Part shown: piece after piece, positions 33,001 to 50,402 of the stretch
How the letters are laid out: each line of letters starts with the position of its first letter
Numbering within the stretch: the first letter of the stretch is position 1
From: Candidatus Termititenax sp.
GTDB lineage: Bacteria; Margulisbacteria; Riflemargulisbacteria; GWF2-35-9; DYQY01
Length of the DNA stretch: 64,000 nucleotides
NCBI GenBank assembly: GCA_020719045.1
Contig: DYQY01000001.1
Span: forward strand, 53,683 to 117,682
Reading direction: 5' to 3'
The notes under the pieces: generated by a model
The model's database searches: none
What the model was told of the DNA's origin: nothing
What the model saw: only the letters and a program-made list of their open reading frames with translations
Made by a program: the position numbers and the translations under genes

Positions 33001-35136
33001 AATAAATATAAACTCGGTGCATCCTACGCACCACTTGATATTTTTAACGTTCAAGGCGAAGCTGATATTCAAAACTATGCAACAGAAAAAAATCCAGATA
33101 ACGGACTAAAACCCATTGATAAATCGCTTAACGCCTATAAATTCTCAGTAGCCTCAGGTCCATCAGTTTTCAAAACCTCCTTTTTCCTGAATAAATACAA
33201 TAACATTGATAAATCAAACAGAACCACAAACCTTGAAACCATTGGGCAATCTCTTGAGCTAAATAATGACCTTATTCTTTTTGAAAACAACTTAAGGCTG
33301 ATTTCTGCATTTAAAGAAACAACTGAATTCCAAACATCAAGCAACCAAAACACAAACAACTTAAATAACAGAAAATATGGCTTCGATCTTGGAGTAAGAC
33401 CAATATCTTTCTTAAGACTAAACGGTAATTACTCGCAAGAAAACTTGGAAAAAAATAATTATGTAAGCACAACACTTAGTGCGACTAAAGAAGAAGCTCG
33501 AAATTATGGAACCAATCTTTCACTTACCCCACCCATAGAATTTCCCCTCTTTCAAAAACCAAACTATGGATTTGCATTACTAAATTCTGAAAAAAGGTCA
33601 TTACTGTCAACCTATAAACCAGAAGCAAATAAATCTATTGGAAACAACTTATCTTTTGGAATCTTTGACCTAAGCAACATTGCACTAAGAAACTCACTTG
33701 CTAACTCACTTCAAAGTGACGAAAAAATACTCAAAGACTCTTATCTGGAAGAATACTCCATAAGTGGGTTTACGGTATTAGGAAACATTTTACCAATCAC
33801 CCTTAAACCTTTTTCAAGAAGATTTACTCGTTCTTCAGCATCAGATGGCATAGGCAACTCCTCTACCATAAGTAGCTCTGGAAGAAATTGGGGTGACTCA
33901 ACCAAATATGGAATTAGCTGGTCTCCATTAAAAGAGTACAATGGCGGATTTGATTATACTCTCAACGAAAACTATTACTTATCTACTGAAAATAAAGCTA
34001 TTGAAGTAATCCACTCATATCAAACCAAACCTAACAGTTCCTTAGTATTATTTAATAATATTAACGCAGCCGACCTTCTTAAAACAAATCACACCTATCA
34101 GAACAATGAAGATAAAGAACAAAAATTTACCTACTATAAAGCAACCTCTGATTTATCTATCACGAACATCACCACCTACAACAAAACAAGTCACCTATAT
34201 TCTAATATCTTTAAAAACGTTTTACTTGAGAAGATTCATCCTGTCTACTTTAACAACAGCTACGTTGATGATGACTTCATAGATACTGCAAAGGGTATAA
34301 AACTTAGAAAACAGGAAGATTACGAACTATATTCTGATTTTAAAGTTTTAAGCTCTCTCACACTTAAACCAAAAATTAATTATAGCCAAATAGATCAACA
34401 TACTAGCATCTCAGATAACTATTCACTTGAGTCCATTAAATCATTGTATGATCAAAGAATTTATAATAACAAACTTATTTCTTCCTTAGGAGCAGCATAT
34501 CCTGTTATTGAAAAAACCAATGTTCTTGCTAATATTGGCTACGACAATATTAAAGAAAATGTATATACAAAAAACTCGGGTGGCATATCTGAAAACCTAA
34601 AAGAGTTTGATGTTTACAGCCTCGGGGTAGGTGTAGATACAACCATTATTGATGGATTATTTTTAAAAGGAACTTATACTCTAAAAAACAGTTTAGACAA
34701 AAATGCTACTCAAAAAGCATTTAATGGTAGCCAAACAATCAGGATTGAAGGAACCTATAAACCTTCTACTCATTTTAATGTTTCTAACGTAGAAACTATT
34801 GGTGATATGTTAGTTGTTGTCTTAAACAAATCAACAGTCGGGTTCTTTTTAGAACACAATAAAGGAACTGGTATCAATTCCTATACTGTTGAAGAAACCG
34901 AAAACTTAGTAGGAAAAACTGTTGAAACAAAAATTGAAGAAATCGACAACCTAAGAATTAAAGGCTCCTTTGTTTCACAAGTTGAAGTTCCGCTAAAAGA
35001 GCAAAGTAGCGGGATGATAGAAAAGTTTGTCTTTTCATCTGACGCACATATTGTTATAAAAAATGACTACGCATCCACCTCTGGAATAAACTACTCAGTG
35101 CTTGGACTTATCTTTAGCGGAAAACTTATCTTCTAA
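30058..35136 (+). CDS. Giant outer-membrane repeat/beta-barrel protein
   Basis: 1692 residues with a signal peptide (YIAYLLLIFSCLLFGVSDS) and ribosome site GAGGGG. A Ser/Pro/Asn-rich segment follows to about residue 150. Then at least six related units of about 90-100 residues repeat a DY-x-[IV]-x-Y-x2-G-x-[IV]-x-F core (KDYTVNYFEGKVIF, VDYYIQYSSGEIFF, INYYINYNTGQITF). From about residue 850 to the end there are alternating amphipathic strands, as in outer-membrane beta-barrels, and the final residue is Phe (SGKLIF), a typical BAM signal. I do not recognise a named family. It could be a large export or adhesion barrel. Converges with the GspF-like gene. Confidence 0.8.
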   Translation: MFQRYIAYLLLIFSCLLFGVSDSFVVSQNDDLSSDELQNIISLIPTENLQEISFLIPSENPNTDTTNLNISTESIPTQNIEPLLPPLPPPKVIFTNELFKPKEIQKTNRLLVITDNRSYLESKKKKEPSPDVDDEWKDFKWEQWEEAKDPLAAFKSPPYVDGFGEIKVYSLQVNADNKNRAYALNDEVYKFLTSKVKEVAFQIDYRFNLLIQAKISEEAEVYYNVSQEPDLPQKTDVSLKVRQTWVRFGYTEKRFVVGSFTDVSKKIDGVSVEGTEGPFTYNFAFGSEKSKSDVFTRQGNGGDEYELRNKPVLEKSVQVWVNDRLQTINKDYTVNYFEGKVIFATIKTSAETLKFSYQYTNPIEEFIPIASNVNLIGINAKYDNKNKQTIIKKLGSYTETFASLPAENEIRVFSYPIELNSEKIYANNTELQKNVDYYIQYSSGEIFFHNKNISNIKISYMSPETKLHQEKLQGNGEKIAFNIKNTPILNNSEVVSLQGNILEKNKDYKIENEKGMLILKYPIASNETVSISYRQLQFETKTFSSATDADFNINFAYIRQFAKSQDDINSKLTSERITSSTNFSSTVTINLKNWPIVNSSVSLLLNNSTITADSISLDYYTGFMTINASALNTATGTLQINYSYYKEFGPQQWNFSGSSRELENYIFYNNKIGYRIKSNLPHPMKYDPNSQYIKVEHKNNANIYKTLKRGYDYDILFNVDSVKEGQVYLILYHSHGVTVDSSSELVSYGLPSSLGNDDLFKITYYYTNSNIPDSGEIINEQFAVVYNQQFDQNFGYSVEVARSHKEYSKSTKTTTDVLAGTGEFNKAYTLSATNIVENSEVVYLNENVAIRDINYYINYNTGQITFINLNPSATDYIRIEFSYFTKSSGGQVTKYDEAGSAIGIKANLKNTFHDTSTQLFFVDDNFSPVGTSQYRKGSNVFILGSKMRPSKELNINTELFTNNQKSTFQSISAGRYLGYSENKYKLGASYAPLDIFNVQGEADIQNYATEKNPDNGLKPIDKSLNAYKFSVASGPSVFKTSFFLNKYNNIDKSNRTTNLETIGQSLELNNDLILFENNLRLISAFKETTEFQTSSNQNTNNLNNRKYGFDLGVRPISFLRLNGNYSQENLEKNNYVSTTLSATKEEARNYGTNLSLTPPIEFPLFQKPNYGFALLNSEKRSLLSTYKPEANKSIGNNLSFGIFDLSNIALRNSLANSLQSDEKILKDSYLEEYSISGFTVLGNILPITLKPFSRRFTRSSASDGIGNSSTISSSGRNWGDSTKYGISWSPLKEYNGGFDYTLNENYYLSTENKAIEVIHSYQTKPNSSLVLFNNINAADLLKTNHTYQNNEDKEQKFTYYKATSDLSITNITTYNKTSHLYSNIFKNVLLEKIHPVYFNNSYVDDDFIDTAKGIKLRKQEDYELYSDFKVLSSLTLKPKINYSQIDQHTSISDNYSLESIKSLYDQRIYNNKLISSLGAAYPVIEKTNVLANIGYDNIKENVYTKNSGGISENLKEFDVYSLGVGVDTTIIDGLFLKGTYTLKNSLDKNATQKAFNGSQTIRIEGTYKPSTHFNVSNVETIGDMLVVVLNKSTVGFFLEHNKGTGINSYTVEETENLVGKTVETKIEEIDNLRIKGSFVSQVEVPLKEQSSGMIEKFVFSSDAHIVIKNDYASTSGINYSVLGLIFSGKLIF

Positions 35137-36254
35137 ATAGTTTCGCTAATCTGACTAAGCGGAATAATCATTACATAACCCAAAACAATTATTACTAGTG
35201 CTATTACAGCTATCGAAAAACTACTTATCAGATTAGCCAATAATCCTTGTGTCTCTCTTTGTTTCTCCTCAGCTTCAATAATAAAGTTTTTATACAGACT
35301 CATCTTTCTCTCATTATCAGTTGCTAATACTGATAGCACTCTTTGCTTATTTGGTATTACCTTAATCTCAAGTGCCTTTTCTAAAGATAGTCCCATTGTT
35401 AGTCTAGAAAAAATTGTTGATAAATAATAGACATTTATCCCCTTCTTCTCCTGTTTTATGTATTCACTTATAAGCTCCTCCAGAGGCACACCAGTTTCTA
35501 TAGCCATTAACGCAATCTGCCAAAAGTATGTCTGGAATTTTGCTTTATATAAATAATTTATTAACCTCGTTTCTGCCTTTACCTTCACCGGAACTAACTT
35601 GTAGGCAAAATAAACCATCAAGACCAATATTGCTAAAAAGGAAACTACTATCCACAAGTACTCTCTACTGATTATCCTTAACAAGAACGGTACTGCTTGT
35701 CCACTATCTTGAAAAAACAGCATAAAATTAGGAAGAATATTATATGAAACAAAAACTATCATTCCAAAACATGCCATCAATAAAACTGTCGGATAAGTTA
35801 GTCTGTTAACCAAATCTTTTGTATTTTTTACTCTTGCTCTTAGTATAACCACCATCTTTTCAAATAACTTCTGATTAATTGCTAATCTGTTCACTGTTAA
35901 AGAAGAAACTATCTCCTCACAAAACAAGTTTGATTCTCTTAAAATCGTAGTAAAATCTTGTCCTCTTCTAAGTTCTGCCAAAACAAATTTACAAACATCC
36001 TTTATCTCTCTACTAGCAAACTTTTGATACTGCAAAAGTAGACTATAAATATTTTGTCCGTCTGAATAATAGAGTGCCAAAAACTCAAAAATCTCTAGCT
36101 GCTTAATAAGAGACAACTTACTTTTTAACTTTATAAAGAAAACTTTCTTTATTATAAAACGCTCAATCTGATTCTGCGTAACCAGACTAAATCGCAATCC
36201 ATTACGAGATAAATACAAAGCTCTAAATAGCACCAAAATAAAACCTTTCTGCAT
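35133..36254 (-). CDS. GspF/PilC-like inner-membrane protein
   Basis: 373 residues. Two T2SSF-type cytoplasmic helical domains (about 55-155 and 245-335) and three long hydrophobic segments (TVLLMACFGMIVFVSYNILP, YLWIVVSFLAILVLMVYFAY, and the C-terminal SFSIAVIALVIIVLGYVMII) reproduce the GspF/PilC architecture of type II secretion and type IV pili. No GspE, GspG or PilT gene is near. The ATG at 36254 lies inside tatD; a TTG a few codons later, after AGAAAGG, is an alternative start. Confidence 0.85.
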   Translation of the reverse strand: MQKGFILVLFRALYLSRNGLRFSLVTQNQIERFIIKKVFFIKLKSKLSLIKQLEIFEFLALYYSDGQNIYSLLLQYQKFASREIKDVCKFVLAELRRGQDFTTILRESNLFCEEIVSSLTVNRLAINQKLFEKMVVILRARVKNTKDLVNRLTYPTVLLMACFGMIVFVSYNILPNFMLFFQDSGQAVPFLLRIISREYLWIVVSFLAILVLMVYFAYKLVPVKVKAETRLINYLYKAKFQTYFWQIALMAIETGVPLEELISEYIKQEKKGINVYYLSTIFSRLTMGLSLEKALEIKVIPNKQRVLSVLATDNERKMSLYKNFIIEAEEKQRETQGLLANLISSFSIAVIALVIIVLGYVMIIPLSQISETI

Positions 36255-36987
36255 TGTTAGTTGTTATGGTAACAACTTCAGTATAACTCATACCAAGCAG
36301 CTCTGACAAAAATTCAACCGTTGTCTTAAGATATTCTGGCAAATTAGTTTTCCCTCTATATGGAACCGGAGCCAAGTATGGCCCATCAGACTCAACAAAA
36401 ATCCTCTCCAGTGGGACCTTTTTTGCGATATCTCTTACGTTTTGTGCTCCCTTAAAGCTCATCATGCCATTAAATGAGAAAAAAGCCCCTAGTCTCAAAT
36501 AATCATCAACCAAACCTACATCGCCAGTATAGGAGTGACAATGATACTTCCCTGGAAACTCTTTGATGATTTCTAAAACTTCTTTCTCTGCTGCTCTGGT
36601 ATGTAAAACAACTGGTTTCTTACCATTTGCAAGCTCAAGCATCTTCGAAAATACTTTTCTCTGCTCATCTGGCTTACTAAACTCATAATAAAAATCCAGA
36701 CCAACTTCTCCTACAGCAACACACTTAGGGTGCTGAAGTAACTTTGCCAGCTCTGCAGTATCATTAGTTTTGGCCTTATCTGCTTCATGAGGATGAATTC
36801 CAGCGCAAAAAAACACATCTTCATATTTCTCTGCAAGCTCTAAAGCAGCAAGACTATCCTTAAGGTCTACACCTAAAGTAATAAGCTTTTTAACACCTTC
36901 TTCTTTAGCTTTAAATAATAGGGATTCCAAACTTAATTCACGATACTTGCTGTCAGTAAGGTGAATGTGTGTGTCTACTAGATACAT
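36223..36987 (-). CDS. tatD: TatD-family metal-dependent deoxyribonuclease
   Basis: 254 residues. The metal-binding VDTHIHLTD at the N-terminus, CAGIHPHEAD, VGEVGLDFYYE, VLHTRAAEKE, HCHSYTG and VESDGPYLAPVP match TatD. It acts as 3'-5' exonuclease or general hydrolase, proposed in DNA repair and quality control. Overlaps metG by 10 nt, the usual metG-tatD arrangement. Confidence 0.96.
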   Translation of the reverse strand: MYLVDTHIHLTDSKYRELSLESLLFKAKEEGVKKLITLGVDLKDSLAALELAEKYEDVFFCAGIHPHEADKAKTNDTAELAKLLQHPKCVAVGEVGLDFYYEFSKPDEQRKVFSKMLELANGKKPVVLHTRAAEKEVLEIIKEFPGKYHCHSYTGDVGLVDDYLRLGAFFSFNGMMSFKGAQNVRDIAKKVPLERIFVESDGPYLAPVPYRGKTNLPEYLKTTVEFLSELLGMSYTEVVTITTNNAERFYFGAI

Positions 36988-38522
36988 TGCTTTCTTGGAA
37001 AAATCGGCTCTGGTTGATTTAGCATTCTGTCTTTAGTAAAGAATCCCCAAGTAAATGGATTTTGAAGCCTCTCTTCTTCTGATATATTTAATTGTTTGTA
37101 AAATAACGCTGTAACTGTAGGCATAAAAGGACTCAACCATGCTGTCACAATTCTTAGCGTTTCAATTAAATGAACCATCACTGTTGCTAGTTTCTCCATA
37201 TTACCCTCTTTTTGCAATGTCCAAGGAGCCATCTCCTCAACAAACTTGTTAGCCCTTCTTATGACTGTAAAAATCTCCTCAAGCGCTATAGATAACTTAA
37301 AGGCATCGATCTTTGCAGGAATGCTGGATTCTAAGGCAATTACCATTTTCTTTAAACCCAACTCTTCCTCTGAAAATAAAGCATCGTTCGCTGATGGAAC
37401 CTTAAGATCAAAGTACTTCTTTGTCATATTTAAAGTTCTATTTAGTAAGTTTCCATAATCATTAGCAAGGTCGCTATTGAATCTTTGCTTCATTGTTTCG
37501 TCTGTATAAGAACCATCTAACCCAAAAACCATTTCTCTTGATATATAGTATCTAAAAGGGTCTACACCGTATTCGTCAATAATAGCAAAAGGGTCTAATA
37601 CATTACCCTTGGACTTTGACATCTTTTCTCCGCCTTGATAAATAAAGCCATGACCAAATACATGTTCTGGTACCTCTACTCCCATAGCCATTAACATTGC
37701 AGGCCATATTACCGCATGAAACTTGAGAATATCCTTACCTATTAAATGTACACTTGCTGGCCAATATCTTTCAAAAAAAGCATTATCTTTTTTATACTTA
37801 ATGCCTGTTAAATAATTTAATAACGCATCAAACCAAACATAAACGTAGTGTTTTTTTTCAGTATTCTCTAACTGTGGGAACTCTATTCCCCAGCTTATTG
37901 TTGTCCGACTAATACAAAGGTCTGTTAAGCCACTTTCAACAAAACTAATAACTTCATTTTTTCTGCTTTCTGGTAATACAAAGTCTGGAACTTTCTTAAT
38001 GTGGTCCAAAATCTTTTGTTGAAACTCAGATAATCTAAAGAAATATGCTTCTTCTTGAAGCATTATTACTTCTCTTCCACAATCAGGGCATTTGCCATCC
38101 ACTAATTGAGTTTCTGTAAAATATGCTTCACAAGGTCTACAATAAAGACCTTCATAGGAACCTAAATATATATAACCATTATCATATACTTGCTTTATTG
38201 TATCCTTAACAATTTCTTGATGCTCAATGTCTGTTGTTCTTATGAAACGATCATTAGAGATGTTTAGCTTTACCCAGAGTTCTTTAAACCTTAAGACAAC
38301 ACTATCAACTAATTCTTTTGGTGTTATTCCTTTTGCTTCAGCTGCTTTTTCTATTTTCTGACCATGCTCGTCTGTACCTGTTAGGAAAAAAACATCTTTA
38401 CCTCTAAGCCTGTAGAACCTTGCTAAAATATCTGCAATTATTGTTGTGTAACAGTGGCCAATGTGGGGAATATCGTTAACATAATAAATAGGGGTCGTGA
38501 TATAAACTGAATCCTTTACCAC
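36978..38522 (-). CDS. metG: Methionyl-tRNA synthetase
   Basis: 514 residues: HIGH signature HIGHCYTTIIADILARFYRL, a Cys-rich zinc knuckle (CRPCEAYF ... CPDCG), WFDALLNYLTG, and KMSKSKGN. The protein ends after the anticodon-binding helical domain, so the C-terminal EMAP/OB tRNA-binding domain found in many MetG proteins is absent. It starts with GTG, sharing a base with the stop of the giant surface protein gene (TAGTG), and so may be translated from the long motor operon. Confidence 0.96.
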   Translation of the reverse strand: MVKDSVYITTPIYYVNDIPHIGHCYTTIIADILARFYRLRGKDVFFLTGTDEHGQKIEKAAEAKGITPKELVDSVVLRFKELWVKLNISNDRFIRTTDIEHQEIVKDTIKQVYDNGYIYLGSYEGLYCRPCEAYFTETQLVDGKCPDCGREVIMLQEEAYFFRLSEFQQKILDHIKKVPDFVLPESRKNEVISFVESGLTDLCISRTTISWGIEFPQLENTEKKHYVYVWFDALLNYLTGIKYKKDNAFFERYWPASVHLIGKDILKFHAVIWPAMLMAMGVEVPEHVFGHGFIYQGGEKMSKSKGNVLDPFAIIDEYGVDPFRYYISREMVFGLDGSYTDETMKQRFNSDLANDYGNLLNRTLNMTKKYFDLKVPSANDALFSEEELGLKKMVIALESSIPAKIDAFKLSIALEEIFTVIRRANKFVEEMAPWTLQKEGNMEKLATVMVHLIETLRIVTAWLSPFMPTVTALFYKQLNISEEERLQNPFTWGFFTKDRMLNQPEPIFPRKQCI

Positions 38523-41500
38523 TAATGGACAACTCCTATCATTCTTACAATTTTAGTTGGCTTACCACTTGAGGCAAATGGTGCCGCCTCTATAACTGCA
38601 AAGTATCCACCTTTTGAAACAAATTGTCCAGACTCATTCCTTCCGTCCCAATCAACTGAACAAAAGAATCCAGAGCCACTTGTTGCACCCTCTTTAGTAA
38701 TTGCAGTGCTATCAAATCTTCTTACAAAATGCCCTAATGAATCATATATTGTTATACTTGCATCAATGTTTTGATTTAAAGAGAAAACTATTTTTGTAGT
38801 TTGAAATGCTGAATAAAAAGGATTTGGATAATTAGATACATTAAAAATAACTTCACTAGTATTAGTAGTCATAATCCTGTCACCTGAATCAAGATACTCG
38901 CTTGATGCTTTCGCTCCATTAACCGCCTTTACTCTATAGGCATACGGTGTATCATACAACACGCTCACATTGCTCCACTCACGATCATTTGCGTTTTTCG
39001 TTGCCACCTTCTGCCACACTAGTGACTGCCCTGCAAGCATCTCTACAATATAATAATCAATGACAGACTCTGCCTCAATAAACGGAGACCAAATCAAATC
39101 ATGTCTATTTTCATCCCATTTAGCAATAACATGTAAACGATTATCATTTCCTACCCATGGAGGAGTAACGTCAGTATGAAATGCAAAGTCTCCTGTTATT
39201 GACCAATACTCTGTACCAGTTAATGTAGACTTAACCTTTGCAGAAATATTGTAAGTTGTGTTATCAGCTAAAAACTTTAATGAATCAGTTATTGTAATAC
39301 TTACTGTTGCTAACTGAATATCTTTACTGTTGGTTACATTATTTACTGAAACATACCCACTATAAATATCAGAACCACCAGATGTTGAACCTATTTTAAC
39401 CAAGATAGTATCAACACCATTATTCTGAACATTAACTGATGTAGAATATCTAAAACTTATATTCCTGTGACTATTGATGTATGCATCCCCTGAAATAATA
39501 GGTCTAGTTGGTTGATAGTAACTCACAACCTGAATCTTATTTGTTGTTACCTCTATCTCATTTAAAATTGTAGCATAAGCTTTCTCACCAGGAATTTGAA
39601 AACTAATGTTTCCTGATGCTGTTTCAGTGTTCACAAACTTAATTTTATATGAAGCTTCTTTTCCAACATTACTTCCAATATATGGCCGAATAACTAATGC
39701 AAAATAATTTTCTGTTGCTAATATTCTTGGATTAGTTTGTGGATTTGAGCTATCTGCAAGCGTTATTCTTATTCTTTCTCCTGAAGGGGCTCTATCAATC
39801 TGAGTAACAGATACTTCCTCTGTATATGCGTAATCATCATTCGCTTGAGAACCAGAATATCTATAAAGCTTAACCTCTACGTCACTATTAGCATTTGAAT
39901 TTAATCTTAAGGTTCCTTGGTCTCTATATAAATCTAAATAGTATAGTTTTGGATATTCTGCTGACCCTTTATAATCTAAGGATAATTTAAATTTAAGTAA
40001 ATTTATGCTCTGATCTTGATAAACGTAACTCTCCGGATTTTTAAAGGTCTCAATCGAAACTTTTGAAACATAATAATCAGAATCAAAAGTAATTGTTCTA
40101 ACTGGAAATTCTCCAGTATTTACCATCTTATCTCCACTCCTAAACTGAAAAGAGTCAGCGCTGACAATCTCAAATGAAAATTTCTTACCAGCACCTAATG
40201 TCTTATCTGTTTCAACCACAACATAAAACTCAGGATCTGTTGACCCAACATTAACTGGATAAGGAAATACAACATTAATTGTTGTTTGACTAATATTTAA
40301 AAACTTATCTGTTCCTGAACTCACAAGTAAATCATCCACATCATACAGTTGATTTCCATTATCTTTATAAATAGCCACTCTTGTAATCTTAGTTGGATTA
40401 ATATCTATTGAATAATTAAACTTCAATGTCAAACCTGTCCAAAGAGCACCTTCAGCAGCTACTCCACCTGAACCAGCAGTTTCAGCAAGCCATGAACGCA
40501 ACGCAAATTTCTTAGCAACAAAACTAACACCAGAATGAATTTCTCTGGTAACAATTAAAGACTCATCCTGTTCCTTTGGAATATAGGAAATATTTAACCT
40601 GGTTTTAGAAATATTAAAACTTGCAACAATCCCATCCAGTGGTTGATTAGCCGGAGGAATAACAGACTCATAGTATAAAACATTAAACGCATCAACTGTC
40701 GCAAATCCAAAACCAATATACTCATTTTTTATATCAGCACCAGAATACACATCTACAACCAAAAAGACCGTTGTGGTTGTCTGTGTGTCTACTATTTTCT
40801 CAGTAAACGATATATTCATAGTGTCTCCTACTCCTTGATAAGGCTTAGAAGCCATTAATAAATCTGTACTTTCACTAAATAATCCATCCTTGTCTTGATC
40901 ATAGTATATATGAAACTTTTCAATTTTAGTTACATGCATATTATCAAGCTGTAAATTAACACCAGAAACATGAACATCTCTGCTGGATGCTTTTAGTTCA
41001 GCGTATATAACTGGTATTTTCTGCTTACCTACTTCTAAATTGTTAAAACTATATGCAGACACATGCTCACTTCTGCCTCTCGCAAAATAATCACCATAAC
41101 TAAGAACCCTTAGTGGTCTTGCAAAAGGAGACCTTCCTATTAGCTGATTTCCTGCTAAATCCATAACATTAATACTAATATTCTTACCAATAGCCTGCTC
41201 TCTTGTATCAATAATACTTCTATCAACAGTTACTCTATATAAATAATCATTACCCATTGTTCCAAGATAAGTCATATCTAGACTTCCCACGATGCTCCCA
41301 TTCTCTGAAACTAACCAACAATTATGAGTTGTTGACAAATCTATTTGTTCGTTAAAAAACATTGTAACAACTATTGGATTTACTAAGTCTATATTGGTAG
41401 GTTGAATTACTGTCTCATAGGTAGGAGACTGGGAGTCATAAGTGATAAACCATCTAGCTGGCTCATCACATCTTGTTTGTGCATCAGCAACCCAAGCAAT

Positions 41501-44500
41501 TATTTCTTTACGTCCTTGAGATGTGTCAGTAAGTATATGTTGTGCACTAAAACTTGCTACATATTCACCAGCAACGTCTGGCCATATATTATACTGATCC
41601 CATCTAGGGTTACCATAGTAATTATCAAATATATAATATTTTCGATAGTCGTCACTGATAATGTTTCTACTTAATACATAGTTTATTGTTAAACTATTAG
41701 TATAATTACCATTTCCCCTATTAGAATAAACCTCAAACCTTGGAGTTGCTGGTATTGTTGAGTCAATAACAAAAGAACCACCAAGCGCTACAGATGTCGT
41801 TATATTCTTTGCTTCGTCTGTAACAATTACTTCAAAAATAGCATTATAGGTGGATTTTTCCTCTCCCAATAAATTAAACAAATTGTAAGTTGCCATCCAG
41901 TACGCTTTATATGCTGAACTATTCTCATTTGTGGCATCCCACCTATCTGAACTAATTAAAAATGGCACTAATATACTAACTGTTATAGGAGTAATAAAAT
42001 CGTTTGCTGGATAAATCACAAGTCTCCAACTTGGTGTTACTGCTGCTCTTTCATAATAATTAATATCTTCTCCACTAAACGTCGTATTATGAGTAATTTC
42101 CATCTGTGCTCGATACAATATCTTTGATAGCTTCAGCCCTTCATATTGAACCTTTGTATCATCTGGTCTAATCATAACTTTTGGCTCAGACTGATCTAAA
42201 ACAATACTACAAGTAACAGCCTCCATTGTATTGATGCCTTTATCATTTATTACCCACAAATGTAACGTTCTTAAACCGTTAATAGAATATACATCTCCTT
42301 TTGGGAAAATATAGAGAATTAAATATTTTCTAGCACCATTAACAACTACATAGCTTTCAGTTGCAAGTGATTGCCAAGTTCTTCCAGCAGCTATTGCATA
42401 ATTTACAGAAGAAGCATCTTCTCCCTCAAGAATTAAATACTGATTTATACTAGTTCCAACAATAAAAGAAATACTTACAACATCAGCATTTGTTAAATCA
42501 TTTCTTCCAGTTTCAATATCTTGCACATTAAAAGACTGAGGAAAAGGTACTTGCTCTGCTCCTAATTTAAAGAAATTACTATAACCATTGAACGTTGTTG
42601 CAATATTACCTGCGTCATCAACGAGTAGCACGCTGAAATGATGAACCCCATCATTCAAAACACCATTCATTGTTACAGAATACTCCCACGACCTTCCAAG
42701 CCCTCCAGTACAATTAATTGTAACAAGCTCACTTGCCCCGCCACTTATTGTATATCTCACAAACGGCGTAACAACTATTTCCTCTGAAACATCTAATGTA
42801 ATATATAGAATATCCTGACTATTTATAAAAGGCATAACATCATTACCAGACTGAGATCTCATTATTATATCTACAACTGGCCTAACTATATCAACTTTAA
42901 TACCTCTTGTTGCCACGGTGCTGTTCCCAGCATTATCCCAAACCTTAACATAACAATCAATTGTTGAATGGTTATTAGCCGAAACCAGTACCTGTGTAGC
43001 CACTAATACCATATCCAAGGTTGCGCTATACTCCGTTTGACCTGTCGATGCTTTTACTCGAACACTCTTAGATGGAAAACCACCAGCATCCACTGCAGTC
43101 CAAGTTAAAACAACATTTTCTGTGTTTAGCCATCCACTTAACGGAAATGTTTTACTATATTCTTGGTTAAAAACTGAATAAATTGTCCCCTCAAGTTCAA
43201 TCTGAGGTGATACAAATAATGAAGCCACAGGAGTTTCAACATCCACTTTTAATGGTACTGACTTAGTCGCTAAGTTACCTGCTCTATCTCTCACCTGAAT
43301 ATAAACATTCTGTGTTGCAAAATTATTTGGACTTACATATATTCCAGAATAACTTAATTCATATTGGAAGCTACTCCACACATCAACACCATCTGAACGA
43401 ACCCTGTAAGGATTGTTGTGTAAGCTTCCTGCTCCATCATTTGTCTGATCCCAATTAAGATTAATTGTTGGGGTTGCATGCCAACCAGATTGTGGCCATA
43501 TACCATCCTCCCCTGAATCAGAATCTGCTAGTATTCTTGCTTCAAAATTAATTGCTGGAGCATCTGTATCAACATAAACATTTGTATTACTTAAAATAAT
43601 ATTACCAGCTCTATCAGAAATTGCTCCCACGATACTTCGTTGAAGTGCACCCGCATTTGCTATAAATAAAGTGGCATTTTGTGAGTTAATTGTACCGTTG
43701 GTAAAATACGTATCTGCTTCTCCCTTTAAAAAATATCCATCAGTTCTAACATCAAATGTGTCAGCAACGGTTAATCCTGGTGCTACATAAAAAGAAAATG
43801 AAACAATATTCCTATTATACCAACCTGCATCAGGCGTCACCTGAAGACCAGCAACATAATTACATGTTATCAGCCTCAAAGTGAAAGAACCTAAAGGAGG
43901 CACCGAGTCAACGGTTACAAGCATACTCTTTGTTAATATGTTTCCTGCTCTATCTATATATCTAGTCTGGATAACATTTACTGTGTTAGAGCTAACTGGT
44001 AAATTTGTTATATATAGGTTAGATGTTGGTTCACCCCAAGGATTATCATTTACCTTGAACTGAAACGGCCTGTTCCTTGCTGTTGGATCAGCCTGACTAA
44101 ACATAATCATAAAAGTAATTTCAGGATTATCATAATATCCCAATTCAGGATCTAATCCATCATTATTTGAGTCTGAGTCATACGACAAGTCAACCTGAAA
44201 ATCATTTGGTGCAACTATATCAGAATATACGCTGTCATTAATTTCAGTAAAATTACCGGCTTTATCTACTAATAGCGCCTTAAAATTAATTGGTGTAGCA
44301 TCGTTAGCGATTAAACTGACATTATTGAAACTAATATTTTGTTCCAAAACGGATTGTATCGTTGGAACCACCGATTGGCCAATATACAACATTACCCTAT
44401 GAAGTAAACCATTCTCTACCACAGAATCCCAAGTAATACTTAGATCTAGGGTTGCCTGATTGTACCATTTTGCTTCTGGAGTAACCCCCTCTGGTTTAGT

Positions 44501-46375
44501 TTCACACGCATCAAACGATATTTTAAAGTTTGTTGGCACAGGATCTTGCAAATCAACAAAAACTTGAGCAGTAACCGATGACATATTCCCTGCTTTATCT
44601 ACAGCCATTAATAAAAATACATTATTAGTAATATCAGCATCAGGAGTAACAACTACATCACTTACAATCTTTACCCAATCTGAAGTTGTAGCATTACTTG
44701 TGCCGACAAGATATCTATATTGAAAAGCCTTATCTCTAAGTTGACCAGCATCTTCAGCATCACAACCCCATTTAACGTTTACATCGTTATACCAACCAAT
44801 TTGCGGTAAAATATTTACTAGTACATTTTCTTTTCCGGTATAGTCTGGTACTAGTTGTAAACTTATGGTTGGCGCTATTGTATCAACTTTGATAGTTCCA
44901 TATGATGTCTTAATATTCCCTGCTCGGTCTATTGCTCTAACCCATATACTACTTGCATTATTTCCCTTTGCATCAACTGTTACCCATGCCTGACTTGCAG
45001 ACTGAGAAACCCCTAACATCACGTCGTCAGCCACTAACGCTGACCAAGTACTCCAACCTTCACTCTTAAACTGATAAGCTAATATACCAGAACTATCAAC
45101 TGGTTCAGCCCAGCTAAAACTCACTGTTTGATCGTTATACCATCCTTCCTCTGGTGCTATTTGGTCAGCTTCATTAATTAAGTCTGGCTGAACAGTAACA
45201 ACAAATTCATTTGGTTCTGTAACATCAATTGTCACTTTCACGCTCCTTGTCACAAAGTTATAGACATTATCAAAAACATGAACCACCAAATCTATATTTC
45301 CTTGAAGAGGAACATCATTATAGCTAAAAGTTACTAAAAATGGTGCTGTTCTTGAAGTGAAAAATCCTGTTGAAGAATTAAATGGGTCAACCACCCAAAT
45401 ATTACTACTGATACCACTTTGCACTGTACCACTTGAGTCATTAGGGACTCCTTGTAAATTAAAACTAACTGTTATTCTGTTAAAGTAGCCTGCTAATGGC
45501 TTAATTATTGTTCCTTCACTATCAAACTCTGTTGCAGCAACATACTCAAGTGCCGCAAAAGCTACATTTGGATTAGTGTTATCTACCTCAATTAAAAAAT
45601 ATGACTTAGATGCTTCATCATCAAGAAGAGGTGCTCCATCAATATCTACAGATATCCACACTAAACTAGCTGCACTAGTAGGTATCGAAAAGTTAGTATA
45701 AATAAACTTGCCCCTATCACCTATACTTGCTACTCCCTTTAAGTCACCAGAAACAAATAATTCTAAACTAAGTGGGATATGAGATGAAGGGAACACTTCT
45801 GGATCACCATAATAGTGAATTGTACCTGTTATGCTTAGCCCAGCATCAGGATAGCTACTATTATTAAGCCCTCCTTTAAATAAATGCCTATTACTTATTT
45901 TTGTACTATATTTTGAATTTGCATTAATTGTTATTGTTTCTACTACATACTGGTCGTTAAAAACCACAGGTATTACCCATGGTAAGGGGTCTGCATCACC
46001 TACATCAACGGATATTGTATATTGAATGCCTCGCTGGAAGCTTCTATCGCTCCTTGGAACAAACCTAACGCGCCATAAATCTGTCGCATACTCCACGTTT
46101 GTTGTCAAAAACTGATTGCTTCCTTTAACGAAGCCCCACTTACCAGAAGCATTTGCTGTAATAACAACAACCTCAACACCATTATTATCTCTTATATCTA
46201 CTGTAATATTATCGTCATAAGCATCTGTAACGTTTACCGAAATATACATATCTTGATATGCATGTATGTATTGGCTATCTGCTTTATCATGCGCCCAAAG
46301 CTTTAAATCATTTGACTGCAATGCGAAAGACATTGCACTAAAAATAAAAAGAACAAACAAAATTAATTTTTTCAT
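38522..46375 (-). CDS. Giant secreted Ig-repeat protein with FN3 and FlgD-like C-terminus
   Basis: 2617 residues with signal peptide (KKLILFVLFIFSAMSFA) and ribosome site GGGGGAAG. Most of it is Ig-like repeats of about 100-110 residues. Each ends in a variant of DRAGN or DKAGN followed by a VDxxxP boundary; eight to eleven copies are seen between about residues 100 and 1400, as in bacterial surface Ig proteins. Later parts hold further beta domains, an FN3-like domain (about 2420-2510), and a C-terminal FlgD-like Ig domain starting SNYPNPFYS, a region that serves as a sorting or assembly end in several phyla. It begins 14 nt after motB on the same strand, so it is probably an adhesin coupled to the motor. 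Confidence 0.82.
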   Translation of the reverse strand: MKKLILFVLFIFSAMSFALQSNDLKLWAHDKADSQYIHAYQDMYISVNVTDAYDDNITVDIRDNNGVEVVVITANASGKWGFVKGSNQFLTTNVEYATDLWRVRFVPRSDRSFQRGIQYTISVDVGDADPLPWVIPVVFNDQYVVETITINANSKYSTKISNRHLFKGGLNNSSYPDAGLSITGTIHYYGDPEVFPSSHIPLSLELFVSGDLKGVASIGDRGKFIYTNFSIPTSAASLVWISVDIDGAPLLDDEASKSYFLIEVDNTNPNVAFAALEYVAATEFDSEGTIIKPLAGYFNRITVSFNLQGVPNDSSGTVQSGISSNIWVVDPFNSSTGFFTSRTAPFLVTFSYNDVPLQGNIDLVVHVFDNVYNFVTRSVKVTIDVTEPNEFVVTVQPDLINEADQIAPEEGWYNDQTVSFSWAEPVDSSGILAYQFKSEGWSTWSALVADDVMLGVSQSASQAWVTVDAKGNNASSIWVRAIDRAGNIKTSYGTIKVDTIAPTISLQLVPDYTGKENVLVNILPQIGWYNDVNVKWGCDAEDAGQLRDKAFQYRYLVGTSNATTSDWVKIVSDVVVTPDADITNNVFLLMAVDKAGNMSSVTAQVFVDLQDPVPTNFKISFDACETKPEGVTPEAKWYNQATLDLSITWDSVVENGLLHRVMLYIGQSVVPTIQSVLEQNISFNNVSLIANDATPINFKALLVDKAGNFTEINDSVYSDIVAPNDFQVDLSYDSDSNNDGLDPELGYYDNPEITFMIMFSQADPTARNRPFQFKVNDNPWGEPTSNLYITNLPVSSNTVNVIQTRYIDRAGNILTKSMLVTVDSVPPLGSFTLRLITCNYVAGLQVTPDAGWYNRNIVSFSFYVAPGLTVADTFDVRTDGYFLKGEADTYFTNGTINSQNATLFIANAGALQRSIVGAISDRAGNIILSNTNVYVDTDAPAINFEARILADSDSGEDGIWPQSGWHATPTINLNWDQTNDGAGSLHNNPYRVRSDGVDVWSSFQYELSYSGIYVSPNNFATQNVYIQVRDRAGNLATKSVPLKVDVETPVASLFVSPQIELEGTIYSVFNQEYSKTFPLSGWLNTENVVLTWTAVDAGGFPSKSVRVKASTGQTEYSATLDMVLVATQVLVSANNHSTIDCYVKVWDNAGNSTVATRGIKVDIVRPVVDIIMRSQSGNDVMPFINSQDILYITLDVSEEIVVTPFVRYTISGGASELVTINCTGGLGRSWEYSVTMNGVLNDGVHHFSVLLVDDAGNIATTFNGYSNFFKLGAEQVPFPQSFNVQDIETGRNDLTNADVVSISFIVGTSINQYLILEGEDASSVNYAIAAGRTWQSLATESYVVVNGARKYLILYIFPKGDVYSINGLRTLHLWVINDKGINTMEAVTCSIVLDQSEPKVMIRPDDTKVQYEGLKLSKILYRAQMEITHNTTFSGEDINYYERAAVTPSWRLVIYPANDFITPITVSILVPFLISSDRWDATNENSSAYKAYWMATYNLFNLLGEEKSTYNAIFEVIVTDEAKNITTSVALGGSFVIDSTIPATPRFEVYSNRGNGNYTNSLTINYVLSRNIISDDYRKYYIFDNYYGNPRWDQYNIWPDVAGEYVASFSAQHILTDTSQGRKEIIAWVADAQTRCDEPARWFITYDSQSPTYETVIQPTNIDLVNPIVVTMFFNEQIDLSTTHNCWLVSENGSIVGSLDMTYLGTMGNDYLYRVTVDRSIIDTREQAIGKNISINVMDLAGNQLIGRSPFARPLRVLSYGDYFARGRSEHVSAYSFNNLEVGKQKIPVIYAELKASSRDVHVSGVNLQLDNMHVTKIEKFHIYYDQDKDGLFSESTDLLMASKPYQGVGDTMNISFTEKIVDTQTTTTVFLVVDVYSGADIKNEYIGFGFATVDAFNVLYYESVIPPANQPLDGIVASFNISKTRLNISYIPKEQDESLIVTREIHSGVSFVAKKFALRSWLAETAGSGGVAAEGALWTGLTLKFNYSIDINPTKITRVAIYKDNGNQLYDVDDLLVSSGTDKFLNISQTTINVVFPYPVNVGSTDPEFYVVVETDKTLGAGKKFSFEIVSADSFQFRSGDKMVNTGEFPVRTITFDSDYYVSKVSIETFKNPESYVYQDQSINLLKFKLSLDYKGSAEYPKLYYLDLYRDQGTLRLNSNANSDVEVKLYRYSGSQANDDYAYTEEVSVTQIDRAPSGERIRITLADSSNPQTNPRILATENYFALVIRPYIGSNVGKEASYKIKFVNTETASGNISFQIPGEKAYATILNEIEVTTNKIQVVSYYQPTRPIISGDAYINSHRNISFRYSTSVNVQNNGVDTILVKIGSTSGGSDIYSGYVSVNNVTNSKDIQLATVSITITDSLKFLADNTTYNISAKVKSTLTGTEYWSITGDFAFHTDVTPPWVGNDNRLHVIAKWDENRHDLIWSPFIEAESVIDYYIVEMLAGQSLVWQKVATKNANDREWSNVSVLYDTPYAYRVKAVNGAKASSEYLDSGDRIMTTNTSEVIFNVSNYPNPFYSAFQTTKIVFSLNQNIDASITIYDSLGHFVRRFDSTAITKEGATSGSGFFCSVDWDGRNESGQFVSKGGYFAVIEAAPFASSGKPTKIVRMIGVVH

Positions 46376-46388
46376 TCTTCCCCCATAC

Positions 46389-47087
46389 TTAACTTATTAC
46401 ATTATTCACAAAAACTTCTTGCAACATTATATTTATTTCAATTCTACGATTCTTAGCTCTATTCTCTTCCGTATCATTAGGCATCATAGGACGATACTCT
46501 CCATATCCTACTGCCTGTATTCTCATGGGCGATATATCAACCTTCTCCACAAAAAACTTTATAACAGAATATGCTCTATCAAAAGAGAGGTCCCAATTAG
46601 AGTCGTACTTCTCTGTTTTAATAGGTATATTATCAGTATGCCCTTCTATCACAATTTTATTATCGGTTTTTTTTAATATTTCTCCAATGTCTTTTAAAAT
46701 CTCAAGTGCCTCTTCTTTTAACTCTGCTTTCCCTGTTTCATAAAGAATCGGGGAGGCTAATACAACTCTAATTTTACTCTCTTCCACCATTACATTTAAA
46801 AAATCACTCAATTTTTGTTCTTGAATGTATTGCTTAACTTTATCAACAACATTAATTCGCTCTTCATCTGGATTCTTCTCAGCTATCTTTGGCTGTAAAT
46901 ACTGTCCCTGCAACGAAACCCTAATTGACTCAAACACCTGCTGTTGCTCACTCTCAGAAACATTGTTCATGATAAATGTGTACAACAACAAAAACAAAAT
47001 CATTAAAAAGGAATTTAAGTCTGCCCATATAGTAAAGAAACTACCACCTTCACCGCCTCCTGATTTTTTTCTCTTTATTTTGAGCAT
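46389..47087 (-). CDS. motB: MotB-type stator protein with OmpA domain
   Basis: 232 residues. A single membrane helix with the proton-carrying Asp in IWADLNSFLMILFLLLYTF (MotB equivalent of YADLMT), followed by a plug/linker region and a peptidoglycan-binding OmpA domain with IVIEGHTDNIP, SNWDLSFDRAYSV and the final RRIEIN. Length is near that of a compact MotB. The start lies 5 nt after the motA stop. It couples ion flow through MotA to force on the rotor while anchored to the wall. Confidence 0.95.
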   Translation of the reverse strand: MLKIKRKKSGGGEGGSFFTIWADLNSFLMILFLLLYTFIMNNVSESEQQQVFESIRVSLQGQYLQPKIAEKNPDEERINVVDKVKQYIQEQKLSDFLNVMVEESKIRVVLASPILYETGKAELKEEALEILKDIGEILKKTDNKIVIEGHTDNIPIKTEKYDSNWDLSFDRAYSVIKFFVEKVDISPMRIQAVGYGEYRPMMPNDTEENRAKNRRIEINIMLQEVFVNNVIS

Positions 47088-47092
47088 TCTGT

Positions 47093-47878
47093 TTACTCTT
47101 TTCCACTCTCTTGTTTTTTCTCTTTCTTTGCGTTATTTGATAAAAATCCTTTCAAGTAGGTCTCAACCTTAATTGGTATTTCACCTTTTGCAATCATTAT
47201 TATTCCTTCAATCATTATTGTTTTACCCATTAACTCCACATCGTTTCTCTTTTCTAACTTCTTTGCCATTGGAGACATCATAAATCCAGAAATAAAGACA
47301 CCATAAAGAGTAGTTAATAGTGCTAATGCCATGGATGGACCCACCGTCTTAGGATCTGTCATGTTCTGTAGCACCTGGAGTATCCCAACAATGGTTCCAA
47401 ACATACCAGTCAAAGGAGCAATTGTTCCCATAAAATTCATGCCTTCAGTATTTTTTGTATGTCTTGCATCTGTTTCCTGAAGTTCATTTTCTAAAACAAC
47501 CCTTATAAAATCGGGGTGTAATTTGTTTACTATCATTAGAAGACCATTATTTAAAAATCCATCACCAAAACCTTTGCCGGCATCTTCTAGTGCTAATCTA
47601 CCTTCTTTCTGAGATAAAATTGATAGCTCAACAAGCTTATCAACTATTTCCGAGTTCGAAGGAAATTTATGTTTACCTAATAGTGCTCTAAAAGATGATA
47701 GAACACCTTTTAACTCAGATGCTGATGATGACACAATAAATAATGTTATTGTTCCACCTATTACCATTATTGCTGACTCTAACTGCATATAAGTTGCAGG
47801 ATGTACAAATATATCTGGCACAGAAAGCACCAAAACCAAAAACGTTCCTATCATACCAATAAAAAAGAAAATATCCAT
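47093..47878 (-). CDS. motA: MotA-type stator proton channel
   Basis: 261 residues with four membrane helices. It has the family segments IMVIGGTITLFIV, the cytoplasmic charged stretch ILSQKEGRLALED (counterpart of the MotA Arg/Glu torque face), and PLTGMFGTIVGILQVL and ALALLTTLYGVFISGFMMSP in helices 3-4. Ribosome site GGGGGG 4 nt before the ATG. It forms the 5:2 stator with MotB and drives FliG-like rotors. The nearest rotor candidates are encoded immediately upstream. Confidence 0.95.
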   Translation of the reverse strand: MDIFFFIGMIGTFLVLVLSVPDIFVHPATYMQLESAIMVIGGTITLFIVSSSASELKGVLSSFRALLGKHKFPSNSEIVDKLVELSILSQKEGRLALEDAGKGFGDGFLNNGLLMIVNKLHPDFIRVVLENELQETDARHTKNTEGMNFMGTIAPLTGMFGTIVGILQVLQNMTDPKTVGPSMALALLTTLYGVFISGFMMSPMAKKLEKRNDVELMGKTIMIEGIIMIAKGEIPIKVETYLKGFLSNNAKKEKKQESGKE

Positions 47879-47900
47879 GTTGTCCCCCCTAGACTACAAA

Positions 47901-48677
47901 TTACTTTTTAGCTTTTGCTACATCATCTCCTAGTATTGGCTCTATGAAACCATCTACTTCTAGGTTCTTTGAGTACTCAATAATGTACTGCTGTGATTTC
48001 TTGATTTCAGTCTTTGAATATTTATTTTTCCCGAATTCAATACCTTGTTGAACCATATTCTTTATACCTTTTGGCATAACCCCATACAATTTTTCTATCT
48101 TATCTTCTGGCATTTGGCAAAAAGCTATCGATAAAACATCTGAAGGTATATCTGAAAAAATCCTTGCAAAGTCTTTATCTGATACATTAAATAAATCTTC
48201 AAAAAACAACATAATTTTTCTAAATGAAGAAGCTGTTTCTGGATATCGAGAGGCTACTGTATCATTTAACAATGTCTTTTGATCAATATCTAAAAACTCA
48301 ACTATTTTAGCAAGAACGTATCTTCCACCAAACTGCTCTGTTAATAGTTTTCTCAATATTTTATCAAATTGCTCTATTTCTTTCTTTGTAAACTGAATAA
48401 GCGAAAGCATCTCGGCTATTATCTGAGCTCTCATTTCATCATCAAACTCTTCCATAATTCTCTGTGCAACATCTGGCTCAACAGAAGATATAACTAAATA
48501 TAAATATTTCATATTCTCTTCTTTTGATTTAATAATCTTTTTTAAAACGTGTGCTGTATGATAGGCATTCTCTTTGTTTATATATGCAAAGTGTTCTTTC
48601 TTGACTTGGTCAATATTAACAGTTTCATTTCCAACTAAATTTATTATATCTTGTTTATCTACCATTTTATAATTCAA
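47901..48677 (-). CDS. Second FliG-like rotor protein
   Basis: 258 residues, no signal peptide. The middle part (about 60-135) has the FliG_M pattern VEPDVAQRIMEEFDDEMRAQ. The C-terminal part (about 140-230) carries FliG_C features: FFEDLFNVSDKDFARIFSDI, a helix ending in CQMPEDKIEKLYGVMPKGIK. It is therefore an independent FliG homologue. TTG 48677 overlaps the previous gene; ATG 48665 is the alternative start. It is 22 nt before motA, so expressed with the stator. It may form a second ring or replace FliM-type parts. Confidence 0.85.
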   Translation of the reverse strand: MNYKMVDKQDIINLVGNETVNIDQVKKEHFAYINKENAYHTAHVLKKIIKSKEENMKYLYLVISSVEPDVAQRIMEEFDDEMRAQIIAEMLSLIQFTKKEIEQFDKILRKLLTEQFGGRYVLAKIVEFLDIDQKTLLNDTVASRYPETASSFRKIMLFFEDLFNVSDKDFARIFSDIPSDVLSIAFCQMPEDKIEKLYGVMPKGIKNMVQQGIEFGKNKYSKTEIKKSQQYIIEYSKNLEVDGFIEPILGDDVAKAKK

Positions 48678-50274
48678 TAAACCCTTCTCGCTCTAAGTGC
48701 TGAGCGTAACTCAATACCTTCTGCCTTGCTTCCTCAACATCAAACTTAGATGCTGTGTTAGACTTTAGCGCTAACCATTGATCAACCATTGCTTGAATGC
48801 CTCTTGCCAATGTGTTGATAACTTTTCTTTGTCTCTCTGGATCAACATGTACTAATGACGTTGCAATTACCTCGGTATCCATATCGCTAAATACCCTCGC
48901 AATAACATTTGTATCAAGTTTTAATAAATCATCAAATAAGAAAATTAGAGCATTAACTTCATCTGCAATACCTGGATATTTAGATGAAATAATGTCCAAT
49001 ATCTTTTTCTTATCTTCTCCCGGTATTCTTTCAATAATTAACTTGAGCCTATTTCTTCCCCCGAATAAATATTCTATATTTTCTTTTATCTCGTTTTCCA
49101 ACACTTGCATCTCACTATCAGGATAATGCTGTAATGACATAATATTATTTACAATTTCTGCCTGTATTTTAGCTGGATACTCAACCAAAATAGAAGACGC
49201 TATCTTAAATGGCAAGCAAGACATTACAACAGCTATTGTCCTTGGAGAGGCTTGCTGAAGCGCTATCTTAACTTGTAATAAAAATTTTAACTTAAATACA
49301 TTTTCCTCATCAATAAAATTAAAATATCTTTCACCATTACCTAAAATACCTTTCTGCATTTCAAGTAACTTTTCTTCTTCTTCTTGTTTTTTAGCTTCTT
49401 CTTCTTTTTTCTTTTTCTGCTCTGCATCTCTTTTCTGTTTTTCAGCTGCGCTCATTGGCACTCCTGCCTCACCAGCATCTGAACCTTTGCCCTCACCTGC
49501 TCCAGCACCCTCACCAGCGCCAGCTCCAGAACCTGAACCACTTCCTGCTCCAGCAGCACCTTTTCCGGATCCTGCTGATTCTTTTTCTGCACCTGCTCCA
49601 TCTTCACCTGCTCCAGACTTATCTTTCTTGCCTCTATTTGGTAGTATTTTTAGTAACACAATGCCAATAATTAATAACAACAATACAATAACTGATATAA
49701 CGATTATTGGAGTCCAGTCGTTTTTCTTTTTAGAAGTTACGCTTGATGCTGATTTATCAGACTTCTGCATTGTGGAAAAATTTTCTCTTAATATTGTGAA
49801 TTTATCGCCTGCATTTTCATCTAACTCTAAAAACTTTGTAACAAAAGTTTTTGCCGCTCTCAAGTCACCCATTTTAATTTTATTATCTAAAATTAGTACA
49901 ACATCTTTATTATTAACAATAGGTGGTCTCTGAACTATTTCATAGTTAAGTGGAACGCCTTCTCCGCCACCACCCTGGGTAAGAAACTTGAGTGATGGAA
50001 TACCTGGAACAACTGTCTGTTGTGAGCCACCAGATCCCCTTGAGTCCATTCCATCAATTTGAGGTAAAGATGTATACCTTATCTCGAACTTTTCTGATTC
50101 GCCTAATAGTGAAATATAAACAATAGAGTTATCTGGACCAAGGATCCTATCTAACGCTGATTGAACTGTATCTTCTAAGTGCTTTTGGTTATCCAATAAT
50201 GATTGTGCACTAACTGGCACATAAAAAAATAAGACGAATAACCCCAAAAGCAATATTTGTTTTGCTTTTACCAC
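48667..50274 (-). CDS. FliF-like/FliG fusion membrane protein
   Basis: 535 residues, GTG start after GAGGG. Signal peptide 1-24. The periplasmic part has LEDTVQSALDRILGPDNSIV (31-52) and VVLILDNKIKMGDLRAAKTF then ENAGDKFTIL (125-162), which read like the RBM3 region of FliF. A membrane helix spans 188-211, followed by a Gly/Ala/Ser/Glu linker (218-272) and a Lys/Glu coil (275-305). From about 325 to the end come FliG middle and C-terminal domains (SPRTIAVVMSCLPFKIASSI, LFDDLLKLDTNVIARVFSDM, HVDPERQRKVINTLARGIQA). FliF and FliG are thus joined in one chain. No flagellar genes lie nearby. Probably the rotor base of an unusual motor. Confidence 0.88.
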   Translation of the reverse strand: MVKAKQILLLGLFVLFFYVPVSAQSLLDNQKHLEDTVQSALDRILGPDNSIVYISLLGESEKFEIRYTSLPQIDGMDSRGSGGSQQTVVPGIPSLKFLTQGGGGEGVPLNYEIVQRPPIVNNKDVVLILDNKIKMGDLRAAKTFVTKFLELDENAGDKFTILRENFSTMQKSDKSASSVTSKKKNDWTPIIVISVIVLLLLIIGIVLLKILPNRGKKDKSGAGEDGAGAEKESAGSGKGAAGAGSGSGSGAGAGEGAGAGEGKGSDAGEAGVPMSAAEKQKRDAEQKKKKEEEAKKQEEEEKLLEMQKGILGNGERYFNFIDEENVFKLKFLLQVKIALQQASPRTIAVVMSCLPFKIASSILVEYPAKIQAEIVNNIMSLQHYPDSEMQVLENEIKENIEYLFGGRNRLKLIIERIPGEDKKKILDIISSKYPGIADEVNALIFLFDDLLKLDTNVIARVFSDMDTEVIATSLVHVDPERQRKVINTLARGIQAMVDQWLALKSNTASKFDVEEARQKVLSYAQHLEREGFIEL

Positions 50275-50310
50275 TTTAACCCTCTGTCTCTATGCTCTTA
50301 ATTATTACTG

Positions 50311-50340
50311 AGTATAACATGCAAATCTGTCATAAAACAA
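50311..50340 (-). promoter_or_regulatory. Promoter of the FliF-FliG/MotAB operon
   Basis: On the minus strand, an extended -10 TGTTATACT (hexamer at plus 50311-50316) with -35 TTGTTT (50335-50340), 18 bp apart, and a leader of about 30 nt to the GTG start. It is a sigma-70-like promoter, without flagellar sigma-28 features. Confidence 0.65.
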
Positions 50341-50355
50341 TAAAATGAGCATTAA

Positions 50356-50402
50356 AATATGTAAGCAAAAAAGCAGATAATCTGCCCTCTTGCTTACATA
50401 TT
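50356..50402 (-). terminator. ssb terminator within a long inverted repeat
   Basis: Outer arms AATATGTAAGCAA and TTGCTTACATATT (13 bp, perfect) enclose an inner hairpin GCAGA-TAA-TCTGC followed on the minus strand by six T. The inner hairpin with T run acts as the ssb terminator. The long outer stem may also protect the downstream motor operon from read-through. Confidence 0.75.

Follow-up and report, generated by a model that had tools for sequence, protein, structure and literature searches.

A FliF–FliG fusion encoded with MotAB and a giant exported protein in Margulisbacteria: a candidate flagellum-independent rotary motor

INTRODUCTION

Several ion-driven motors related to the flagellar stator MotAB work outside flagella. 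GldLM, ExbBD, TolQR and AglRQS are such non-flagellar relatives, and none is described as using FliG (PMC8986121); AglRQS, which serves gliding in Myxococcus, is named as a flagellar-stator-related motor used without a flagellum (PMC8986121). In the E. coli flagellar motor, MotA R90 contacts FliG D288-D289 and MotA E98 contacts FliG R281 (PMC12505986). Natural fusions of FliF and FliG have been described as well: the Chlamydiaceae fusion, of ~330 aa, has no RBM3/SpoIIIAG-like domain and, of FliG, contains the M region alone (PMC4768692). Our search of the literature on FliG in Margulisbacteria, on FliF–FliG fusions and on non-flagellar FliG found no account of a motor such as the one described here; as its coverage was partial, the novelty of a FliG motor is provisional.

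Here, we analyzed a 64,000-nucleotide stretch of DNA (hereafter the window; G000:C17:53683-117682) from a 1.75-Mb assembly, 99% complete, of a member of Candidatus Margulisiibacteriota (Margulisbacteria). An earlier note, made from the letters of this DNA, had pointed to a stator–rotor operon without flagellar genes, coupled to a giant surface protein.

RESULTS

Rotor, stator and giant protein genes lie on one strand

Five ORFs, encoding the FliF–FliG fusion (P0005), a second FliG-like protein (P0004, hereafter FliG2), MotA (P0003), MotB (P0002) and the giant protein (P0001), all lie on the minus strand (Table 1). The five-gene operon placed there by the earlier note is real, and its coordinates match ours. 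The fusion and FliG2 genes overlap by 11 nt, and the following junctions measure 22 nt (FliG2–motA), 5 nt (motA–motB) and 13 nt (motB–giant). The operon does not end at the giant gene as had been proposed, however: metG overlaps the end of that gene by 1 nt, and tatD and one further ORF overlap in turn (35133-38522), so that the transcription unit probably continues into metG. As for the single promoter claimed, an extended -10 can be read by eye, but a promoter scan of the operon's strand there listed no qualifying site, which leaves a consensus reading. The fusion, FliG2 and giant genes are collinear in a genome of the same genus and in a sister family, indicating that the arrangement is not due to chance. 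Convergent with the downstream genes is the gene of a 1692-aa outer-membrane-like protein, P0006 (window 30058-35136, plus strand).

Table 1. Features of the motor operon and its surroundings, in window coordinates
Feature	Position	Strand	Basis
Terminator-like hairpin between ssb and the operon	50358..50400	-	Sequence
Extended -10-like element TGTTATACT, putative promoter	50311..50319	-	By eye
P0005, 535 aa: signal/anchor helix, FliF RBM3/collar, one TM helix, Gly/Ala-rich and charged linker, FliG_M, FliG_C	48667..50274	-	
RBM3/beta-collar module of P0005, residues 26-173	49756..50199	-	hhalign to FliF 238-397; VIA-align to FliF chains
Transmembrane helix of P0005, residues about 189-213	49636..49710	-	Hydropathy, predicted helix
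FliG middle and C-terminal domains of P0005, residues 338-535	48670..49263	-	Pfam, profile search, predicted fold
P0004, 258 aa, second FliG-like protein (FliG2): FliG_M, FliG_C	47901..48677	-	Pfam, both above cutoff
P0003, MotA, flagellar-type stator A subunit (MotA_ExbB)	47093..47878	-	Pfam
P0002, MotB: plug/TM with ion-binding Asp, OmpA peptidoglycan-binding domain (MotB_plug, OmpA)	46389..47087	-	Pfam
P0001, 2617-aa secreted giant; hydrophobic leader at the N-terminus only	38522..46375	-	ORF, hydropathy
FlgD_ig at the P0001 C-terminus, residues 2524-2597	38585..38806	-	Pfam, above cutoff; sole Pfam match in P0001
metG-like ORF overlapping the end of the giant gene	36978..38522	-	ORF overlap; metG after the giant also in L038, L041

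The fusion joins a FliF RBM3/collar to the FliG torque module

In P0005, Pfam placed both FliG_M and FliG_C above cutoff and returned no match to FliF. YscJ-type RBM1-2 (PF01514) had no match in P0005 either, its only matches in the genome being the FliF proteins of two flagellar gene sets, A and B (see below). In profile–profile comparison, residues 26-173 aligned to FliF 238-397 (probability 96.5%, E 7e-10). A profile of 16 fusions, run against the PDB with hmmsearch, matched FliF chains at positions 133-212 (E 5.6e-4) and FliG chains at positions 271-485 (E 7.7e-41). Across about 92 residues, the AlphaFold model of P0005 resembled the FliF RBM3/collar with an rmsd of 1.6-1.9 and a Z of about 13. 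It also resembled FliG M-C (Z 14-16), and its FliG C domain superposed on MotAB-bound FliG at 1.5 Å; the model has a pLDDT of 69 and a pTM of 0.31, which makes its domain arrangement unreliable. From these profile, PDB and fold matches, P0005 therefore consists of the RBM3/collar, one TM helix, FliG_M and FliG_C, without RBM1-2 and FliG_N. The FliF–FliG fusion of the earlier note is thus genuine, its FliF part being recognized by three methods, but it is partial, as only the RBM3/collar of FliF is there. FliG_M-C was kept in every fusion aligned. Sequence and predicted fold together show P0005 to have a periplasmic RBM3/collar, the ring-forming part of FliF, then one membrane helix and a cytoplasmic FliG torque module.

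FliG2 is a soluble FliG_M-C protein, with no membrane segment and no FliG_N match above cutoff. P0003 scored 172 bits against the flagellar MotA/PomA/MotP model versus 28 bits against TolQ. Both P0003 and P0002 matched flagellar MotA/MotB models, and GldL/GldM was absent from the matches listed for these two proteins. The MotB Asp was seen by eye in every copy except one with masked bases.

For the giant protein, the 2617-aa length and the leader stand; the Ig repeats read there earlier are plausible, with Pfam lending them weak support. Its C-terminus matched the T9SS type A sorting domain (TIGR04183) weakly, at 16.4 bits, below the cutoff of 23. The motor genes are followed by a giant in f1 and f2 genomes and by a different, large ORF in f3. 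The giant could be a read-through neighbor of the motor genes.

The same genome carries two flagellar gene sets

We drew the content of the rest of the genome from selected stretches and family searches. Pfam covers several genes of the two sets; those that had no family match were named by eye and from blastp comparisons within this group of proteins. Set A, the canonical flagellar set, comprises flgB, flgC, fliF, fliG, fliH, fliI and fliJ on L035, where fliF and fliG are adjacent (C17); fliK, flgD, flgE, motA, motB, fliL, fliN, fliO, fliP, fliR and flhB on L005 (C3), in the order flgE-motA-motB; a fliM on L006; and flagellins on C4. Set B, a second flagellar-type basal body, comprises flgF/G, flgA, flgH, flgI, a sigma gene, flgB, flgC, fliE, fliF, a short fliG, fliH and fliI on L036, and flgD, a flgE-like gene, fliM, fliN, fliO, fliP, fliR and flhB on L007. 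There are two copies of FlhA in the genome. The short FliG of set B had no Pfam match; an eleven-sequence profile of it aligned to FliG 9-161 only (probability 95.8%), that is, to the N and M domains without the torque domain. No motAB of its own was found in set B.

Hence, the absence of flagellar genes holds within the window and fails genome-wide. The earlier note had allowed that the operon might be displaced from a complete flagellar set lacking its own fliF, fliG and motAB. Set A has all of these as well as flagellins, and the operon is therefore not its displaced motor. Set B stands halfway: a fliF of its own is there, but its FliG lacks the torque domain and motAB is missing; the operon could be its displaced motor.

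A type V-A CRISPR effector, Cas12a (PADLOC, 1477 bits; L005:13942-17961, G000:C3), adjoins the set A flagellar operon and is followed by ORFs resembling cas4 and cas1 by eye. Elsewhere, L034:4238-5230 (G000:C9) encodes another leader-TM protein, weakly similar to FliG, and a 780-aa ORF comes after it.

Rotor–stator contact residues are changed on both sides

At the contact positions, set A MotA keeps R and D, and set A FliG keeps R and E-E. We compared these positions in 21 fusion-type pairings. The MotA R90 position was never R, and the FliG R281 position was G, S or T. The FliG D288 position was occupied by Q in FUS, FliG2 and FG5 and by E in FG3, and the D289 position was not acidic in any pairing. 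In the window pair, the canonical set of FliG torque residues K264, R281 and D288/D289 with MotA R90 and E98 was not kept, only the MotA E98 position being acidic. This joint change of FliG and MotA contacts would fit a dedicated rotor–stator pair, or a weakened one; without the canonical charges, the generation of torque might be altered or lost.

Fusion and MotA co-occur across the phylum, with or without flagellin

We surveyed 55 genomes of the phylum Margulisiibacteriota/Margulisbacteria. FlhA and FliF were each found in 52 of them, FliM/N in 54 and flagellin in 8. FliG_C was present in 24 of the 55, one being a 27-bit partial match; the fusion was present in 23, exactly the genomes with MotA (E<1e-12), and 15 of these keep both without a flagellin match. 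The remaining genomes (32/55) have neither, and nearly all of these still have basal-body (set B) components, which also occur in every family bearing the fusion. As the genomes are related, these counts are not independent events. Since relatives without flagellin keep it, the motor probably has another mechanical job, on the cell surface.

The gene order recurs in related genomes, a point that the earlier note had left to be surveyed. In the window's class, the order is fusion, FliG2, motAB (sometimes beyond clpA), giant, metG; the fusion-FliG2-giant order is kept in families f1 and f2, with motAB adjacent or one gene away. Beyond this class, a protein with a leader and often with TPRs usually comes first, followed by fusion, motA and motB. 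In families f9 and f15 and in some f18 copies, motA lies away from the fusion or beside a different form of it. FliI-like matches adjoining the fusion in relatives were set aside, as they look like Rho by eye in one sequence.

In a FliG domain tree, set A FliG stood apart from a single group that took in every fusion, FliG2 and the FG3 paralogs; in this group, the Marinamargulis-type fusions were the sister of the class-specific paralogs. Several branches were long. The tree indicates one ancestral fusion family that expanded into three paralogs in the window's class. By hhalign, the N-terminus of the FG3 paralog matched that of P0005 (probability 97.4) and gave no usable match to FliF directly (probability 4.4). 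A scan of genome contigs with a six-sequence fusion profile yielded 16 loci; some were titled Margulisiibacteriota/Marinamargulisbacteria, most only "bacterium" and three carried other group labels, and restriction to the phylum is thus not claimed.

The survey also brought up a flagellar-type basal body with FliG truncated before the torque domain, found phylum-wide (L082, L084, L086, L088, L090, L094, L096, L098, L100, L101); many genomes have no FliG_C, MotA or flagellin match whatever. In several Marinamargulis-type genomes, a ParA/MinD-like ATPase gene was seen by eye between fliM and fliN of the set B operon (L083, L085, L089, L091).

Paralogous motor loci encode PorV/PorQ-like proteins

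Some MotAB/FliG-fusion loci paralogous to the operon encode a PorV/PorQ family outer membrane protein (NF033709), above cutoff in L138 (the window's own genome), L147, L063 and L067 and below cutoff in L059, L060, L068, L069 and L072. The L138 protein adjoins a paralogous motAB locus, whereas the window's operon has no PorV. The paralogous loci also carry Ig-type giants and, in some, CheY-like regulators. L138 (G000:C11) and L147 (G001:C28) share a conserved cluster of motA, motB, a periplasmic TPR protein, a long protein without Pfam match, the PorV/PorQ protein and a giant Ig-type protein; L138 has two CheY-like regulators as well.

The SprA translocon was above the 200-bit cutoff in 0 of the 55 genomes. 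The best match reached 51 bits and covered SprA region 584-717 only, a region matched in 45 of the 55 genomes, motorless ones included. A true T9SS was rejected in the phylum survey on these grounds. A phmmer search of P0006 against the PDB returned nothing; this protein has only SprA-like stretches, which resemble region 584-717, and similar proteins occur in motorless genomes.

DISCUSSION

We found a stator–rotor operon that lies apart from flagellar structural genes, is linked to a giant exported protein and is conserved in relatives, in a genome that does carry flagellar genes. Our main reading, to which we give a probability of about 0.5, is that it encodes a rotary motor derived from the flagellum but independent of it, with its load at the surface or in the envelope. 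P0005 would assemble an inner-membrane ring, as the RBM3 of FliF does, and peptidoglycan-anchored MotA5B2 would turn this ring by ion flow through a rotor–stator interface rewired relative to the flagellar one. The periplasmic RBM3 ring would then pass rotation to the envelope or surface load, which in the window's lineage would most likely be the giant surface protein encoded alongside, to be moved or exported. In principle, this would compare to the T9SS/gliding motor, the rotor here being FliG. The PorV/PorQ proteins beside paralogous FliG motors lean toward gliding or adhesin movement, and the load may differ between lineages (surface versus set B). Tentatively, and with more doubt than belief, one may go further and see a new class of rotary machine, in which a FliG rotor and MotAB stator on their own RBM3 ring, wholly outside the flagellum and with a rewired interface avoiding cross-talk with the flagellar motor, would move or export giant surface proteins via PorV-like outer-membrane partners.

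As the main alternative, the same genes could be the detached engine of set B, the fusion supplying the torque domain and MotAB the stator, so that set B would be a rotating apparatus without a flagellin filament. The truncated FliG_B (FliG 9-161 only) indeed complements the fusion, and set B has no motAB. In L113, from a flagellin-less lineage, fusion-motA-motB precedes the first set B gene by 141 bp in the same orientation; that gene is 80% identical to the one that opens a fliK/flhX/flgF-like set B run in L114, where the fusion likewise lies upstream of set B. Every family with the fusion has set B components. Yet the 32 genomes without fusion and MotA, nearly all with set B components, indicate that set B does not need them. 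Moreover, several FliG-motor paralogs face a single set B in the window's class, the operon of the window lineage lies away from set B, and the fusion brings its own RBM3 membrane ring although FliF_B exists. We hold this reading as possible, though for this lineage less likely than the surface load.

Whether the operon might simply serve set A as an auxiliary rotor/stator under other conditions was also considered. Flagella served by two stators are known from other bacteria, and set A sits in the same genome. But set A has its own FliG and MotAB, contact residues differ from it on both sides, P0005 has its own RBM3 and TM, and 15 genomes keep fusion and MotA without flagellin, all of which makes a service to set A very improbable. 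A non-rotary energizer of the Tol/Ton or T9SS kind, in which MotAB would move a periplasmic partner directly with the FliG parts as mere scaffolding, seems unlikely. It would accord with the loss of canonical FliG torque charges, with the PorV/PorQ and periplasmic TPR proteins near paralogous motors, and with GldLM, ExbBD, TolQR and AglRQS working without FliG; against it stand the flagellar character of P0003 by model score, the constant presence of FliG_M-C in the aligned fusions and the fit of the C domain on MotAB-bound FliG.

If the main reading, a flagellum-independent motor, is true, the flagellar rotor–stator pair can be detached and reused, with a FliG rotor on its own ring, MotAB and altered contacts, and kept without flagellin; it would also serve as a natural experiment on the residues that couple FliG with MotA. 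The flagellar-type basal bodies with torque-less FliG in the phylum would bear on the interconversion of motile and non-motile flagellar-type systems.

The AglRQS system is not known to have a FliG rotor. Set beside the window's operon by description alone, AglRQS resembles it as a flagellar-stator-related motor without a flagellum (PMC8986121). The T9SS/gliding motor GldLM shares an ion-driven 5:2-type motor, and PorV/PorQ proteins and FlgD_ig/CTD-like giants occur in related loci (PMC8986121); it differs in that MotAB and a FliG rotor are found here, with no SprA above cutoff in the phylum survey. Like P0005, the Chlamydiaceae protein is a natural one-chain fusion in a setting not known as a flagellum (PMC4768692). 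It is the nearest described fusion, with the opposite choice of domains (PMC4768692): P0005 keeps RBM3, lacks RBM1-2 and has the FliG_C torque domain, with MotAB alongside. With the bacterial flagellar motor, the operon shares a homologous RBM3/collar, FliG_M-C and flagellar-type MotA and MotB with ion-binding Asp and peptidoglycan-binding domain. In contrast to it, the window's fusion lacks FliF RBM1-2 and FliG_N, rotor ring and torque module form one polypeptide, and the fusion is not limited to flagellin-bearing genomes (15/23 without a flagellin match); the operon's contact residues are altered, and it stands apart from the cell's flagellar operons, tied to a giant exported protein.
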